Source: Arthrobacter pascens (GTDB taxonomy: Bacteria > Actinomycetota > Actinomycetes > Actinomycetales > Micrococcaceae). Taken from it: DNA of 64,000 nt. The stretch is from assembly GCF_030815585.1 (NCBI RefSeq), contig NZ_JAUSWY010000001.1, positions 1 through 64,000 on the forward strand. The letters are read 5' to 3'. Of the stretch, positions 5,680 through 59,580 are shown one piece after another. Made by a program: the position numbers and the translations under genes. Position 1 is the first letter of the stretch. The number at the start of each line of letters is the position of its first letter. Under the pieces are notes generated by a model, which saw nothing but the letters and a program-made list of their open reading frames with translations, was not told where the DNA came from and ran no database searches.

Positions 5680-5798
5680 GTTACGGCGGTCATAGCGTGG
5701 GGGAAACGCCCGGTCCCATTCCGAACCCGGAAGCTAAGACCCACAGCGCCGATGGTACTGCACCCGGGAGGGTGTGGGAGAGTAGGTCACCGCCGGAC
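5680..5798 (+). rRNA. rrf: 5S ribosomal RNA
   Basis: About 119 nt. It starts GTTACGGCGGTCATAGCG and ends GTCACCGCCGGACAC; the terminal segments pair (GGCGGT with ACCGCC) to form helix I. The loop segment CCCATTCCGAACCCGGAAG is diagnostic of 5S. It is the last gene of the rRNA operon and is followed within 15 nt by a perfect hairpin. Confidence 0.95.
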
Positions 5799-5929: not shown

Positions 5930-6043
5930 AGGAACTGAGAGAGCGTCACCCCAAACCCCGCAGCAACTGAGAGAGCGTCACCCAAAACCCCGCAGGAACT
6001 GAGAGAGCGTCACCCCAAACCGTGCAGGAACTGAGAGAGCGTC
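5930..6043 (+). repeat. Four-copy direct repeat array with exact 32-bp period
   Basis: The core (A)GGAACTGAGAGAGCGTC occurs at 5930-5947, 5962-5979 (one base changed), 5994-6011 and 6026-6043, each exactly 32 bp after the previous one. The rest of the unit (CACCCCAAACC-type) is also conserved, so the whole 32-bp unit is repeated rather than repeats separated by unique spacers. The same unit, with small changes, occurs at 32371-32585. The array lies between the rRNA terminator and the HU gene. Function unknown. Confidence 0.85.
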
Positions 6044-30888: not shown

Positions 30889-32355
30889 ATGAGTACAACC
30901 AAAGACATGACCCAGTCGATCATGAGGCGAAAGCCAATCGACGACATTGAAGAAGAAAATAAACACAGCGGGCTGTTCAAGTCCCTGGGACTGTGGCAAC
31001 TCACGGCCATCGGCGTCGGCGGCATTATCGGCGTCGGGATATTCTCCCTCGCAGGACTGGTGGCGGCCGGCAATGAAACCACGCCGGGCGTGGGGCCCGC
31101 GGTGCTGATTTCGTTCCTGGTCGCCGGCCTGGCCTCGGCGGCGGCCGCCCTGTCCTACGCGGAGTTCGCGGGAATGATTCCCCGGGCCGGTTCCGCCTAC
31201 ACCTACGGCTATGTCGCCTTGGGCGAAGTGATCGGCTGGTTCATCGGCTGGGACCTCCTCCTCGAATACATCGCCATTGTGGCTGTGGTGGCCATCGGTA
31301 TCTCCGGCTACTTCGATGCCTTCCTTTCCGGGATCGGTATCCACATGCCTATCTGGATGTCCTCCACGCCGGATGAGGGCAAGGGCGGCATCATTAACAT
31401 CCCGGCGATCGTCGTCTGCCTGGTCGTGACCTGGATTTTGTCCCGTGGTACCAAGGCCTTCGGCCGGTTCGAACTGGTAGCCGTGGCCATCAAGGTCGTC
31501 CTGATTCTCTTCATCATCGGCCTGGGCATCTTCTACATCGATACCAACAACTACAACCCGTTCATGCCCAGCGGCTTTGGCCCGGTGCTGGCGGGCTCTG
31601 CGACCGTCTTCTTCGCTGTTTTCGGTTATGACGCTATGAGTACGGCAGCTGAGGAAGCCAAGGACGGCAAGAAGCACATGCCGAAGGCCATCGTCCTGTC
31701 CCTCATCATCGCGATGCTCCTTTACGTCGCAGCCACCCTGGTTCTGACCGGTATGCAGAACTACAAGGACATCGACCCCAAGGCCGGTTTTGCCTCGGCA
31801 TTCACGGGTGTGGGCCTGCCGGTGATTGCCACTATCATCTCCGTCTTCGCGGTGCTTTCCATCCTGACCGTTATGCTGACCTTCCTCCTCGGCGTCACCC
31901 GCGTCTGGTTCTCCATGAGCCGTGATGGCCTGCTCCCGGGCTGGTTCTCCAAGACCGACCGGCACGGCACTCCACAGCGCGTCACCTGGATTGCCGGCAT
32001 CGCCTCTGCACTGCTGGCAGGCGTGTTCCCGATCAAGGCCGTCGCGGACCTCACCAATATCGGCATTCTGGCCGCGTTTGTCGTCGTCTGCTTCTCTGTG
32101 ATCGTGTTCCGCTACAAGAGGCCCGACGCCCCGCGTACCTTCCGCCTGCCCCTCATGCCAGTTATCCCCGCCTTTGGTGTGTTGGCATCGGCATTCCTGA
32201 TGTTCCAGCTGCACTGGGAGACCTGGGCCCGGTTCGGCGTCTGGCTCGTAATCGGCCTGGCGATCTACTTCTTCTATGGTCGCAAGCACTCGCTGATGAA
32301 TCCCAACAGCCCGCGCCACGAGGAGTTGGAGGAGATGCATCGCCCCGTCGGCTGA
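30889..32355 (+). CDS. APC-superfamily amino acid permease
   Basis: 488 residues from the ATG at 30889, which has CAGGAG seven bases upstream; an ATG at 30814 is too early. About 12 membrane helices. APC signature regions are present: GVGGIIGVGIFSLAG in helix 1, AEFAGMIPRAGSAYTYGYVALGE, and FFAVFGYDAMSTAAEEAKD. It resembles the CAT/YfnA-like cationic or neutral amino-acid permeases. Shared promoter elements with putA suggest proline or a related amino acid as the substrate. The gene ends at a 17-bp hairpin inside the repeat array. Confidence 0.93.
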   Translation: MSTTKDMTQSIMRRKPIDDIEEENKHSGLFKSLGLWQLTAIGVGGIIGVGIFSLAGLVAAGNETTPGVGPAVLISFLVAGLASAAAALSYAEFAGMIPRAGSAYTYGYVALGEVIGWFIGWDLLLEYIAIVAVVAIGISGYFDAFLSGIGIHMPIWMSSTPDEGKGGIINIPAIVVCLVVTWILSRGTKAFGRFELVAVAIKVVLILFIIGLGIFYIDTNNYNPFMPSGFGPVLAGSATVFFAVFGYDAMSTAAEEAKDGKKHMPKAIVLSLIIAMLLYVAATLVLTGMQNYKDIDPKAGFASAFTGVGLPVIATIISVFAVLSILTVMLTFLLGVTRVWFSMSRDGLLPGWFSKTDRHGTPQRVTWIAGIASALLAGVFPIKAVADLTNIGILAAFVVVCFSVIVFRYKRPDAPRTFRLPLMPVIPAFGVLASAFLMFQLHWETWARFGVWLVIGLAIYFFYGRKHSLMNPNSPRHEELEEMHRPVG

Positions 32356-32370
32356 CCCCTTCCCGGGACG

Positions 32371-32585
32371 CTCTCTCACCTTTCGCAGCTTTTTCCCGGG
32401 ACGCTCTCTCACTTTTGGTGCGGGAATGATGAACCCTCTCTCACATCCTGTGAGGGAGGGTTCATCTGTTGTGATGGAAGTGAGAGAGGGTTGGCCCAAA
32501 AGGTGCAGGAAGTGAGAGAGCGTTCCGTGAAATGCCGCAGGAAGTGAGAGAGGGTTGGCCCAAAAGATGCAGGAAGTGAGAGAGC
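32371..32585. repeat. Second 32-bp-period repeat array, inverted and direct halves around a hairpin
   Basis: Three minus-oriented copies of the core (CTCTCTCAC at 32371, 32404, 32436) are followed by a hairpin whose right arm holds a plus-oriented copy (32450), then four plus copies of GAAGTGAGAGAG at 32477, 32509, 32541 and 32573. The last four are exactly 32 bp apart; the minus copies are 33 and 32 bp apart. The unit (GCAGGAAGTGAGAGAG, then GTTGGCCCAAAA) is the same as in 5930-6043 with a few changes. It lies between the permease and putA. Confidence 0.88.
32428..32466 (+). terminator. Hairpin inside the repeat array, permease terminator
   Basis: Arms 32428-32444 and 32450-32466 (17 bp, one T-G wobble) with a five-base loop. 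The left arm includes one minus copy and the right arm one plus copy of the repeat core. It is 73 nt downstream of the permease stop, suitable for termination or transcript protection, though no T-tract follows directly. Confidence 0.65.
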
Positions 32586-32634
32586 GTTGGCGGATTTTCC
32601 GAACGTTCGGACGGGGGATTAAATCATCGGTTTT

Positions 32635-32737: not shown

Positions 32738-35700
32738 ATGACGAACATTGCAATGAAGACCGGTGTGAATGCCGGACCGGCCAGCTCCACCCGGCGATCA
32801 GATGTGCCTCAGGCCCAGGCTCTCGCGGCGGACACCATCGCGCTGGTTCGCCACTGGTTGACCGAGGCTGCGAAGGTTCCGGTGGACGCCTCTGCAGAAC
32901 AGCTTGCAGGCGTCCTCAAGGACCCCAACGGCCTGGACTTCACGGTGGGCTTTGTGGACGGCGTAGTCCGCCCTGACGACATTCACGTGGCTGCCCGCAA
33001 CCTGGCGGCCTTGGCCCCCAAGGTTCCCGCGTTCCTTCCGTGGTACATGCGCAGTGCGGTCCGCGTCGGCGGCAGCATGGCACCCGTACTCCCGCAAGTT
33101 GTTATCCCCATCGCCCGCCGCGTGCTCCGCGAAATGGTGGGCCACCTCATCGTGGACGCCACCGACGCCAAGCTGGGTCCCGCCATCGCCAAGATCCGCA
33201 AGGAAGGCATCAAGCTCAACGTGAACCTCCTCGGCGAAGCCGTGCTGGGTGAGCACGAGGCCTCCCGCCGGCTCGAAGGAACCCACACACTGTTGTCCCG
33301 TCCGGACGTGGACTACGTCTCCATCAAGGTCTCCTCCACCGTGGCCCCGCACTCGCCCTGGGCCTTCGATGAGGCCGTGGCACACGTCGTGGAAAAGCTC
33401 ACCCCACTGTTTGCCAAAGCCGCGTCCTACGCCGGCGGCGGACAGAAGGCCAAGTTCATTAACCTGGACATGGAGGAATACAAGGACCTGGACATGACCA
33501 TCGCGGTCTTCACCCGGATCCTGGACAAGCCCGAGTTCAAGGACCTCGAGGCCGGAATCGTGCTGCAGGCCTACCTTCCGGACGCGCTCTCCGCCATGAT
33601 CCGCCTCCAGGAGTGGGCCGCTGCCCGTCGCGCCGATGGCGGCGCCGCCATCAAGGTGCGTGTGGTCAAGGGCGCCAACCTGCCCATGGAACAGGTTGAG
33701 GCCTCCGTGCACGGCTGGCCGCTGGCTACCTGCAGCAGCAAGCAGGACTCGGATACCAACTACAAGCGCGTCATCAACTACTCGCTGCACCCGGAGCGGA
33801 TCCGCAACATCCGGATCGGCGTGGCCGGCCACAACCTTTTTGACATCGCTTTTGCCTGGCTGCTGGCCAAGCAGCGGGGCGTCGAATCCGGCATCGAGTT
33901 CGAAATGCTCCTTGGTATGGCGCAGGGCCAGGCTGAAGCTGTGAAGAAGGACGTCGGCTCGCTGCTGCTGTACACCCCGGTGGTGCACCCGGCAGAGTTC
34001 GACGTCGCCATCGCCTACCTGATCCGCCGTCTCGAAGAGGGCGCCAGCCAGGACAACTTCATGTCCGCAGTCTTTGAGCTGAGTGAGAACGAAGTCCTGT
34101 TCGAGCGCGAAAAGCAGCGTTTCGTCGCCTCCCTCGAAAAGCTCGACGGCGCCGTGCCGCCGGCCAGCCGCCAGCAGAACCGCAGCCTCCCGGCTGAGCC
34201 GATGCCGCGTGAGGGCTTCGAGAACACCCCGGACACCGACCCGTCCCTGCCCGCCAACCGCGACTGGGGCCGGGCCATCCTGGAGCGCGTCCCGTCCTCA
34301 ACCTTGGGCAACGCCTCCGTCGAAGCAGCCACCATCACCGACGCCGACACCCTCAACGCCGTGATCGATACAGCCGTGGAAAAGGGCAAGGCCTGGGCGG
34401 CGCTCTCCGGCGACGAGCGCGCGCAGATCCTGCACCGCGCCGGCGACTTCCTGGAGGCCCGGCGCGCCGACCTCCTGGAGGTCATGGCCAGCGAAACAGG
34501 CAAGACCCTCGACCAGGGCGATCCCGAGGTCAGCGAAGCCGTGGACTTTGCCCACTACTACGCCGAGTCGGCCCGCAAACTGGAAAAGGTCGACGGCGCC
34601 ACGTTTGTTCCAGCCAGGCTCACTTTGGTGACCCCGCCCTGGAACTTCCCGGTAGCGATCCCCGCAGGGTCGGCCCTGGCGGCGCTGGCCGCCGGCTCCG
34701 CCGTCGTCATCAAGCCTGCCAAGCAGGCCCGCCGCAGCGGTGCCGTGATGGTCGAGGCACTGTGGGAAGCCGGCGTACCGCGTGACGTGCTCACCATGGT
34801 GCAACTGGGTGAGCGGGAACTTGGCCAGCAGCTGATCTCCCACCCGGCTGTGGACCGCGTGATCCTTACCGGCGGCTACGAGACCGCCGAGCTGTTCCGT
34901 TCCTTCCGCAAGGACCTCCCGCTCCTGGCCGAGACCAGCGGCAAGAACGCCATCATCGTTACTCCGAGCGCCGACTTTGACCTCGCGGCCAAGGATGCTG
35001 CGTACTCCGCGTTCGGCCACGCCGGCCAGAAGTGCTCGGCAGCCTCACTGGTGATCCTGGTGGGCTCGGTCGCAACGTCCAAGCGGTTCCACAACCAGCT
35101 GCTCGACGCCGTGACCTCCCTGAAGGTGGGCTACCCCCAGGACCCCACCAGCCAGATGGGACCGATCATCGAGCCGGCAAACGGCAAGCTGCTCAACGCC
35201 CTCACCACGCTGGATGAAGGCGAGAGCTGGGCCGTTGAGCCCAAGAAGCTGGACGAGACCGGCCGCCTGTGGAGCCCGGGTGTCAAGTACGGCGTCCAGC
35301 GGGGGTCCTACTTCCACCGGACCGAATTCTTCGGACCGGTGCTGGGCATCATGACCGCTGACACACTGGAGGAGGCCATCGCCATCCAGAACCAGATCGA
35401 GTACGGCCTCACGGCAGGCCTGCACTCGCTGAACTCGGACGAAATGGCTACCTGGTTGGACACTATCCAGGCCGGAAACCTCTACGTGAACCGGGGCATC
35501 ACCGGGGCCATCGTGCAGCGCCAGCCGTTCGGCGGCTGGAAGAAGTCGGCCATAGGGGCCGGCACCAAGGCGGGCGGCCCCAACTACCTGGCTGGCCTGG
35601 GTGATTGGGTGAGCAAGGAGAGCCTTGCGGGCTCAGCCGTCACCAACCCCGGCGTCCGCCGGATCGCTGACGCAGCCAGGACTGCCCTGGAGCCGGCCGA

Positions 35701-36244
35701 GCTGGAGTGGCTGCAGCGTTCGCTGGCATCCGACGCCCACGCCTGGGCGGACGAGTTCGGCACCGCCAAGGACGTCTCCGGCCTAAGCGCGGAGCGGAAC
35801 ATCTTCCGCTACCGTTCCGTGCCAGTGACCATCCGCCTCTCTGAGGGTGCGCCGCTGGCGCACCTGGCGCGGACTGTGGCCGCAGGCGTGGTGGCGGGAT
35901 CGGACATCACGGTCTCCACCGCCGTCGAACTTCCCGCCCAGCTGCGTGCGGTGTTCACCGGGCTGGACATCAATGCGAAGGTGGAGTCCGACGCCGGCTG
36001 GCTGGCTTCAGCTGCGCACCTCGCCGCCGCAGGACAGCTGTCCGGTGCGCGGATCCGGCTGATCGGCGGGAACGCCACGGCTTTGGCTGAGGCCACGGAC
36101 GGGCGCCCCGACATAGCCGTTTACGCCCACGAGGTCACCGAGGCAGGGCGCGTGGAACTGCTGCCGTTCCTGCACGAGCAGGCCGTCAGCATCACCGCAC
36201 ACCGCTTCGGCACGCCGAACCACCTCTCGGACGCGCTCATCTAG
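32738..36244 (+). CDS. putA: Bifunctional proline dehydrogenase / L-glutamate gamma-semialdehyde dehydrogenase
   Basis: 1168 residues. PutA oxidises proline to P5C with FAD and then to glutamate with NAD+. The proline dehydrogenase barrel occupies about 120-440 (LEGTHTLLSRPDVDYVSIKVSS; VRVVKGANLPMEQ; NLFDIAFAWLLAKQRG). The ALDH domain covers about 520-980 with TLVTPPWNFPVAIP, catalytic Glu732 in LAETSGKN and nucleophile Cys766 in GQKCSA. A C-terminal 190-residue domain follows. The N-terminal RHH DNA-binding domain of enterobacterial PutA is missing, so it does not regulate its own gene; the LysR gene nearby may. It ends at the bidirectional hairpin at 36261. Confidence 0.96.
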   Translation: MTNIAMKTGVNAGPASSTRRSDVPQAQALAADTIALVRHWLTEAAKVPVDASAEQLAGVLKDPNGLDFTVGFVDGVVRPDDIHVAARNLAALAPKVPAFLPWYMRSAVRVGGSMAPVLPQVVIPIARRVLREMVGHLIVDATDAKLGPAIAKIRKEGIKLNVNLLGEAVLGEHEASRRLEGTHTLLSRPDVDYVSIKVSSTVAPHSPWAFDEAVAHVVEKLTPLFAKAASYAGGGQKAKFINLDMEEYKDLDMTIAVFTRILDKPEFKDLEAGIVLQAYLPDALSAMIRLQEWAAARRADGGAAIKVRVVKGANLPMEQVEASVHGWPLATCSSKQDSDTNYKRVINYSLHPERIRNIRIGVAGHNLFDIAFAWLLAKQRGVESGIEFEMLLGMAQGQAEAVKKDVGSLLLYTPVVHPAEFDVAIAYLIRRLEEGASQDNFMSAVFELSENEVLFEREKQRFVASLEKLDGAVPPASRQQNRSLPAEPMPREGFENTPDTDPSLPANRDWGRAILERVPSSTLGNASVEAATITDADTLNAVIDTAVEKGKAWAALSGDERAQILHRAGDFLEARRADLLEVMASETGKTLDQGDPEVSEAVDFAHYYAESARKLEKVDGATFVPARLTLVTPPWNFPVAIPAGSALAALAAGSAVVIKPAKQARRSGAVMVEALWEAGVPRDVLTMVQLGERELGQQLISHPAVDRVILTGGYETAELFRSFRKDLPLLAETSGKNAIIVTPSADFDLAAKDAAYSAFGHAGQKCSAASLVILVGSVATSKRFHNQLLDAVTSLKVGYPQDPTSQMGPIIEPANGKLLNALTTLDEGESWAVEPKKLDETGRLWSPGVKYGVQRGSYFHRTEFFGPVLGIMTADTLEEAIAIQNQIEYGLTAGLHSLNSDEMATWLDTIQAGNLYVNRGITGAIVQRQPFGGWKKSAIGAGTKAGGPNYLAGLGDWVSKESLAGSAVTNPGVRRIADAARTALEPAELEWLQRSLASDAHAWADEFGTAKDVSGLSAERNIFRYRSVPVTIRLSEGAPLAHLARTVAAGVVAGSDITVSTAVELPAQLRAVFTGLDINAKVESDAGWLASAAHLAAAGQLSGARIRLIGGNATALAEATDGRPDIAVYAHEVTEAGRVELLPFLHEQAVSITAHRFGTPNHLSDALI

Positions 36245-59348: not shown

Positions 59349-59377
59349 TTGACCACGCCCACAAGGGCAGATTCATT
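59349..59377 (+). promoter_or_regulatory. Possible promoter for the TPP-riboswitch operon
   Basis: TTGACC (59349-59354) and ATTCAT near 59371-59376, about 16-17 bp apart, are the best -35/-10 candidates, placed just before the riboswitch. The -10 box is weak. Confidence 0.4.
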
Positions 59378-59381
59378 TACG

Positions 59382-59503
59382 ACAGGGGAGCGCCGCCGTC
59401 GGGCATCACTGGCATTGCCAGGGAACCGCAGGTGGGCGCTGAGAGTGCGGACAGCCGCAGACCCTCGAACCTGATCCGGTTAGTACCGGCGCAAGGGAGT
59501 CGA
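59382..59503 (+). promoter_or_regulatory. TPP riboswitch (THI element)
   Basis: The diagnostic segments are CTGAGAGTGC (near 59438), ACCCTCGAACCTGATCCGGTTAG (starting at 59461) and GCGCAAGGGAGTCGA (ending at 59503), with the 5' GACAGGGGAGC strand closing the P1-P2 helix region. It precedes ykoE by 77 nt. Thiamine pyrophosphate binding would shut off the downstream ykoEDC genes, in high-GC bacteria usually at translation. Confidence 0.95.
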
Positions 59504-59580
59504 GTTCTCGAAGTGTCTGGCAAGGCGGCCAACGCCGCAGGCCAGGTGCACTTTCCCCTCCTGTTCCTCAGGAGGACCAC

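Follow-up and report, generated by a model that had tools for sequence, protein, structure and literature searches.

Structure of the array between the permease gene and putA

The analysed window, i.e., the whole stretch of 64,000 nucleotides from Arthrobacter pascens, contains an array of short repeats between the gene for an amino-acid permease and putA, which encodes a proline dehydrogenase/aldehyde dehydrogenase. The features of this region and of a second array in the window are:

30892..32355, + strand, amino-acid permease gene (open reading frame with Pfam AA_permease_2, 1.4e-53)
32367..32381, - strand, inverted core 1, outermost, adjoining the permease stop codon (15-mer core)
32400..32414, - strand, inverted core 2, 33 bp from inverted core 1 (15-mer core)
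32428..32466, no strand assigned, central hairpin with 18-nt arms (32428-32445 and 32449-32466) and a 3-nt loop
32432..32446, - strand, inverted core 3, which forms the left hairpin arm and keeps the 32-bp register
32448..32462, + strand, degenerate direct core with 3 mismatches, the right arm of the hairpin
32478..32492, + strand, direct core 1 (15-mer core)
32510..32524, + strand, direct core 2 (15-mer core)
32542..32556, + strand, direct core 3 (15-mer core)
32574..32588, + strand, direct core 4 (15-mer core)
32738..36244, + strand, putA, the downstream gene (Pfam Pro_dh 4.6e-60, Aldedh 8.5e-99)
5682-5798, 5S gene of the rRNA operon of the window
5933..6043, + strand, second array, with four direct cores, between the rRNA operon and an HU-type gene

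The whole array spans 32367-32588; its first core lies 11 bp behind the permease stop codon, and putA starts about 150 bp to its right. The mapping of the cores confirmed the two-sided arrangement of three inverted cores, a hairpin and four direct cores that had been described in the initial annotation. The direct copies are indeed exactly 32 bp apart, but the first inverted spacing is 33 bp instead of 32 bp, the one exception in the array. A hairpin is present as described, with arms of 18 nt rather than 17 nt, which are 94% complementary. A copy of the core had been assigned to each arm, and this holds for the left arm, which is the third inverted core, and in a degenerate form for the right arm. 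The claimed relationship to the repeats at 5930-6043 was also confirmed; the four direct cores there are again 32 bp apart.

The predicted RNA fold of the central hairpin has an energy of -34.9 kcal/mol (z -6.87), and the whole array region also folds strongly (z -6.55). A similar hairpin, GAACCCTC...GAGGGTT, was seen at the same place in relatives. The hairpin at 32428-32466 is strong by folding, and no clear T run follows it in the window; the rule that the GC-rich hairpin of an intrinsic terminator precedes a T run may not hold in actinobacteria. The hairpin is probably the terminator of the permease gene, and it is potentially bidirectional. At the gathering score, Rfam had no family at the array; elsewhere in the window, at 59374-59515 on the + strand, it revealed a TPP riboswitch.

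The array family in the A. pascens genome

The sequence AASTGAGAGAGSGTT was found, with up to two mismatches, 63+59 times in the 4.73-Mb genome, compared to 4+4 matches of a reversed control pattern. The matches fall into about 31 array places, and all 77 cores with no or one mismatch have neighbours in an array. All 15 two-sided arrays have the order inverted-centre-direct, and 10 inverted-only and 7 direct-only arrays were present in addition. Cores that differ from the consensus were counted only beside a neighbour at 31-33 bp. A single small reversed hairpin, AGCTGAGAGAGGGCC / GACCCTCTCTCAGCT, which has a degenerate core and lies directly after a stop codon (L139:3360-3395), was thereby left out; it is the sole array-like pair of opposite order seen in this genome. 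Array places were not significantly enriched near the origin, as 20 of 31 were located in its half of the genome (p 0.15). In another genome of the genus, G303, few array pairs lay around the terminus among the about 100 of 203 pairs that were listed.

An array was found after each rRNA operon of both genomes, i.e., 4/4 in A. pascens and 5/5 in G303, in agreement with their four and five 5S genes, and the nearest core was about 60 to 175 bp away. The strict pattern detected the arrays behind eight of these nine operons; the ninth array (L141) has imperfect cores and was found with mismatches. At three of the nine operons, including that of the window, the copies nearest to the operon have the opposite polarity.

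The flanking genes are ordinary ones. Pfam families were matched by 29 of the 30 flanking proteins scanned, e.g., methionyl- and arginyl-tRNA synthetases, PEP carboxylase and formate-THF ligase, and no transposase was among the 30. A phage or plasmid origin of the arrays was rejected, as no phage match was obtained and the plasmid matches comprised just two Arthrobacter replicons of 1.0-1.35 Mb.

Polarity and 32-bp phase of the arrays

Among named species representatives, at least 116 stretches with arrays were found (L009-L124), and the 80 stretches that were listed belong to Arthrobacter, Pseudarthrobacter, Paenarthrobacter or are designated Micrococcaceae bacterium. The 116 stretches contain 142 arrays of at least two cores, namely 56 two-sided, 47 inverted-only and 39 direct-only arrays. 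The order inverted-centre-direct was observed in 56/56 two-sided arrays, and the order direct-inverted in none. The mirror arrangement, which had been considered unlikely to result from slippage, is thus systematic, and the suggested check whether other arrays also flip at their centre was positive for all two-sided arrays, 56/56 in the other genomes and 15/15 in A. pascens. In 40 stretches of G303, 12 simple two-sided, 14 inverted-only, 16 direct-only and two compound arrays were present; the compound arrays look like neighbouring arrays that have run together.

The spacing between cores on the same strand was exactly 32 bp in 342 of 358 cases in L009-L124 and in 130 of 135 cases in G303. The spacer length is therefore kept (about 96% of the spacings) while the spacer letters diverge: the mean identity was 66% within arrays and 46-48% between arrays, and indels would be expected at such a divergence. 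The spacers have an A/T tract in their middle and a partly conserved GCRGGAA that precedes the core. Compared with CRISPR arrays on the repeats alone, the arrays have a conserved core of about 11-20 bp and spacers that are partly conserved.

The central hairpin and the outer units

In the two-sided arrays of other genomes the inner gap was 26 in 25 of 56 cases, mostly with a centre like ACTTTC-loop-GAAAGT, and at least six of the seven centre bases pair in 13 of these 25 arrays. Compensated variants are present in some cores. The two arms were compared rung by rung in 71 arrays, of which 49 have an inner gap of at most 40 and 22 a wider one. At inner gaps of up to 40, the six bases beyond the innermost core matched in 53%, compared to 37% between unrelated arrays, and the match was 35% or less for the second and outer rungs. 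In the 22 arrays with wider gaps the innermost pair showed no excess of complementarity. As the outer rungs have no register-specific complementarity, the stem that is kept is limited to the innermost pair, and to arrays in which this pair is close. One long hairpin of all units was ruled out by this nested-pair test; the fold of the whole region looks strong (z -6.55), but its outer pairing is generic, from core to core. The proposed role as an RNA end-protection module was not supported in the form of a long stem, because the arms beyond the innermost pair lack register-specific pairing and 86 of the 142 arrays are one-sided. Instead, an array probably consists of a terminator hairpin and of outer sites that are kept by sequence and phase.

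Position of the arrays at gene ends

The distances to stop codons were pooled for the A. pascens genome and L009-L124. Between the outer edge of the arrays and the stop codon that it faces, the median distance was 12 bp, with 97 of 154 edges within 20 bp. For the opposite edge of one-sided arrays, the median was 61 bp, and 10 of 48 edges were within 20 bp. Where one-sided arrays lie between co-directional genes, the sense strand is the CTCTCTC-type one in 36 cases and the reverse one in 12 (p 7e-4), and thus 12 of these 48 arrays run against the polarity rule. Convergent gaps contain 59 of 121 arrays in L009-L124, 10 of 27 in A. pascens and 17 of 43 in G303, and in the latter genome this is an enrichment over the background gaps of the same stretches (82 of 453, p 0.002). 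These context counts cover the arrays that lie away from the edges of a locus and outside of called genes, and they contain noise from the crude gene calls that were made for this analysis. The earlier suggestion of a functional insulator or binding platform would fit the polarity and the position at gene 3'-ends.

Distribution among relatives

The 32-spaced pair TGAGAGAGSGT-21-TGAGAGAGSGT was present in 15 of 295 sampled members of the family, 14 of which belong to the 24 sampled members of the own genus and one to the 271 others; its reversed control had no match in the 295. The more generic TGANNNNSSGT, twice at 32 bp, yielded at least six pairs in 51 of 61 genus members, with a maximum of 340 (G334), compared to at most three per genus member for the reversed control. 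The remaining 10 of 61 had zero to four pairs, and since they have fewer than five unit pairs, the arrays are dispensable in the genus. Among 396 genomes of the order, more than four pairs outside of the genus were found only in G024 (22+28) and G604 (3+11). A literature search, with a coverage of mostly open-access papers, met no description of this element.

Species-specific dialects of the core

The inner bases of the core differ between species. Among the matches listed, they read GAGAG in A. pascens, mostly GGGAG in G321, CCGGG and GCGAG types in G340, GCGCG and GCGGG in G344, and mostly TGGGG in G295. A comparison at one locus was possible for the gap between the permease gene and putA, for which 40 orthologous stretches were collected; three without a permease match were dropped, and the remaining 37 and the own stretch make up a set of 38. 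An array is present in 25 of the 38 gaps, and most of these arrays are nearly uniform in one dialect. Relaxing the pattern at this gap yields artefacts, e.g., CGGACGCT in G227.

The conserved locus without the repeat, which the initial annotation had named as an argument for dispensable filler, does occur. By the pattern, 13 of 38 orthologous gaps have no array, and thus the array is not indispensable at this locus. One of the 13, in G326, has degenerate units, and visual inspection showed a different hairpin in most of the remaining 12. Array-less gaps with often one long hairpin of another type are those in L154, L157, L158, L162, L164, L166, L170, L176, L183 and L185; an example, also by eye, is TTGCGCTATCACTT...AAGTGATAGCGCAA, in which a word of the GTGAT type again faces outward.

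On a tree of the permease coding sequences, the dialect labels need at least 16 changes, compared to a mean of 23.1 for shuffled labels, with the labels assigned by eye in seven states including 'none' and with G326 labelled TAGAG though it has no pair. Two supported sister pairs, G307/G338 and G345/G300, have different dialect labels at this same locus. The inverted arm could be aligned between G227 and G244 on the one hand and G339 and G208 on the other: the free units have GGGAG instead of GAGAG, and CTCTCTC is retained in the central hairpin. The direct arm in this comparison also reads GGGAG, and its spacers do not align.

Dialects can also be mixed, within single arrays at the permease-putA gap (G346, G329) and within the genomes of G340 and G303. 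A sharp sequence-specific reader fits poorly with the mixed genomes. In G303, the use of A or G at position 7 of the core correlates with the replication strand (63:26 vs 26:48 in the pooled data, p 8e-6; p 6e-6 for the right arm and p 0.19 for the left arm when taken separately). The choice between GCGGG and GCGAG (L191-L230) thus tracks the leading and the lagging strand and is a natural marker of mutational bias within the repeat. Judged from these letters, position 7 appears to be near neutral in G303 and to have changed in place by mutation rather than by recent copying.

Possible function and origin of the arrays

The reading that we prefer, to which a probability of about 45% is assigned, starts from the observed anatomy, polarity, phase, gene-end position, rRNA-operon association and dialects. 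The arrays might be polar 3'-boundary elements at gene ends, genus-wide, with cooperative sites for a co-evolving putative factor. The hairpin, often between convergent genes, would act as a transcription terminator. The sites stand on one side of the hairpin or on both, and their 32-bp phase, about three helical turns, would place them on the same face of the DNA. As the sites point outward, a polymerase that leaves a gene would usually meet one polarity, i.e., ACGCTCTCTCAC in the sense strand in A. pascens. From the sequences we infer the putative factor, its cooperative binding to the sites and its effect on transcription: once bound, it would make the boundary tight by blocking or insulating against read-through and antisense transcription. 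Because the cores are uniform and the spacers are not, something seems to read the core; the kept phase argues for an action at the level of the DNA with touching neighbours; and the polarity and the position suggest that polymerases are affected as they leave genes. The specificity of the factor may drift between species, and the free sites would follow, resulting in the dialects. The species-specific spelling of the core word suggests a partner molecule that reads it. A stronger version is doubtful, namely that of a polar roadblock terminator whose DNA sites, cooperative and helically phased, follow many genes and the rRNA operons; upon a change of its specificity, the fast-evolving putative reader would pull its sites, tens to hundreds of them, towards another species dialect.

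The main rival is a selfish or domesticated repeat similar to REPs and REPINs, which is tolerated at safe gene ends and has a secondary use for the host. This is unlikely, in spite of several shared traits. Like REP/REPIN elements, the units are extragenic with a bias for 3'-ends and convergent gaps, the innermost pair is an inverted dimer that forms a hairpin, the copy number varies widely among relatives, and by eye some arrays from different loci of G303 have spacer types in common, several of these arrays lying at rRNA operons. In PMC3733652, REPs are described downstream of ORFs, in uni-directional and convergent gaps, and for two species families most convergent REPs are less than 20 bp from stop codons. 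REPs, BIMEs and REPINs (PMC3733652, PMC3116915, PMC2817692) resemble the arrays in being interspersed and extragenic, in their 3'-end/convergent bias, in their foldable inverted dimers and in species-specific types. However, the unit, GCRGGAAGTGAGAGAGSGTY-N5-AAAA-N4, has by eye no inverted repeat in its profile and is not a palindrome, in contrast to the stem-loop units of 20-40 bp of REPs and REPINs. The units form 32-bp tandem strings in phase and with outward polarity, and sister species can have different core dialects at an orthologous locus. The REP transposase (RAYT, Y1_Tnp, PF01797) had no match in the A. pascens genome and was matched in 1 of 61 genus members, the flanks, as described above, are ordinary genes without a transposase among the 30 proteins scanned, and no phage match was obtained. 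In addition, the cores agree though the spacers differ between arrays, and thus their agreement is not simply due to recent copying of whole units. Even if they were selfish, a repeat family with a fixed phase, polarity and dialect and without a known transposase would be of a new type.

Three further readings are weaker than the boundary element and the REP-like repeat. Termination could occur at the RNA level only, with a C/U-rich CUCUCUC after the stop codon loading Rho and the hairpin ending the transcript, so that a DNA-binding factor would be unneeded. Rho prefers pyrimidine-C pairs, the sense strand past the stop codon is rich in CUCUCUCAC, in line with the polarity rule, the central hairpin is stable (z -6.87), and the spacers have a mild excess of C in the sense strand (519 C to 406 G in A. 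pascens, 1981 to 1524 in L009-L124). This excess is small, however, RNA sites do not need an exact phase of 32 nt, and other dialects in the same polarity (GCGCG, CCGGG) are not C/U runs, so that this mode of action is quite unlikely. Very unlikely is a supercoiling or nucleoid element, similar to the BIMEs of E. coli with their sites for gyrase or an architectural protein, where torsion builds up by transcription; BIMEs are characterised by the binding of gyrase, IHF or Pol I. The rRNA operon ends, the convergent enrichment and the 32-bp phase with a central A/T tract would agree with it, but a conserved housekeeping enzyme is not expected to need species dialects, and the polarity is unexpected for a torsion sink.

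DNA uptake sequences occur at a high density, with thousands of copies per genome that are mostly solitary or paired, and their inverted pairs serve as terminators. That the cores are similar words, spread by biased transformation, is highly improbable: they share the dialects and the inverted pairs at gene ends with a genome-wide short word such as that of the Neisseriaceae, for which species dialects are described (PMC3630211), but they are far fewer (tens to hundreds; 122 core matches with up to two mismatches in 4.73 Mb) and confined to phased tandem arrays, without a solitary copy among the 77 closest cores of A. pascens.

Two known types of terminators share parts of the architecture. 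Bidirectional intrinsic terminators also have a central hairpin in convergent gaps, but they lack phased units outside of the hairpin, which in the arrays are not kept by pairing. The terminators of eukaryotic rDNA are Sal box arrays that are bound by TTF-I. They also consist of several oriented sites in a row behind rRNA genes, and a polar stop of the polymerase is proposed for the arrays as well. In contrast to Sal boxes, the arrays are bacterial, have a hairpin in their centre, are also found behind many ordinary genes, and their reader protein is putative.

A core word that is uniform per genome, differs between sisters and is independent of the spacers resembles the footprint of a partner with changing specificity, and we are aware of few such cases in bacteria. 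If the partner of the boundary elements were found, a testable system would be available for the insulation of transcription units, for the ends of rRNA operons in a large soil genus and for the co-evolution of regulators and sites.

Similar 32-bp strings, of ACTGATTGCCCGTT, were observed at gene ends in G604, which belongs to another family of the order (L231-L236). In the clearest cases (L231, L233, L235) the strings directly follow a plus-strand stop codon in direct orientation, i.e., with a polarity opposite to that in Arthrobacter, and they may form an independent system of the same kind.
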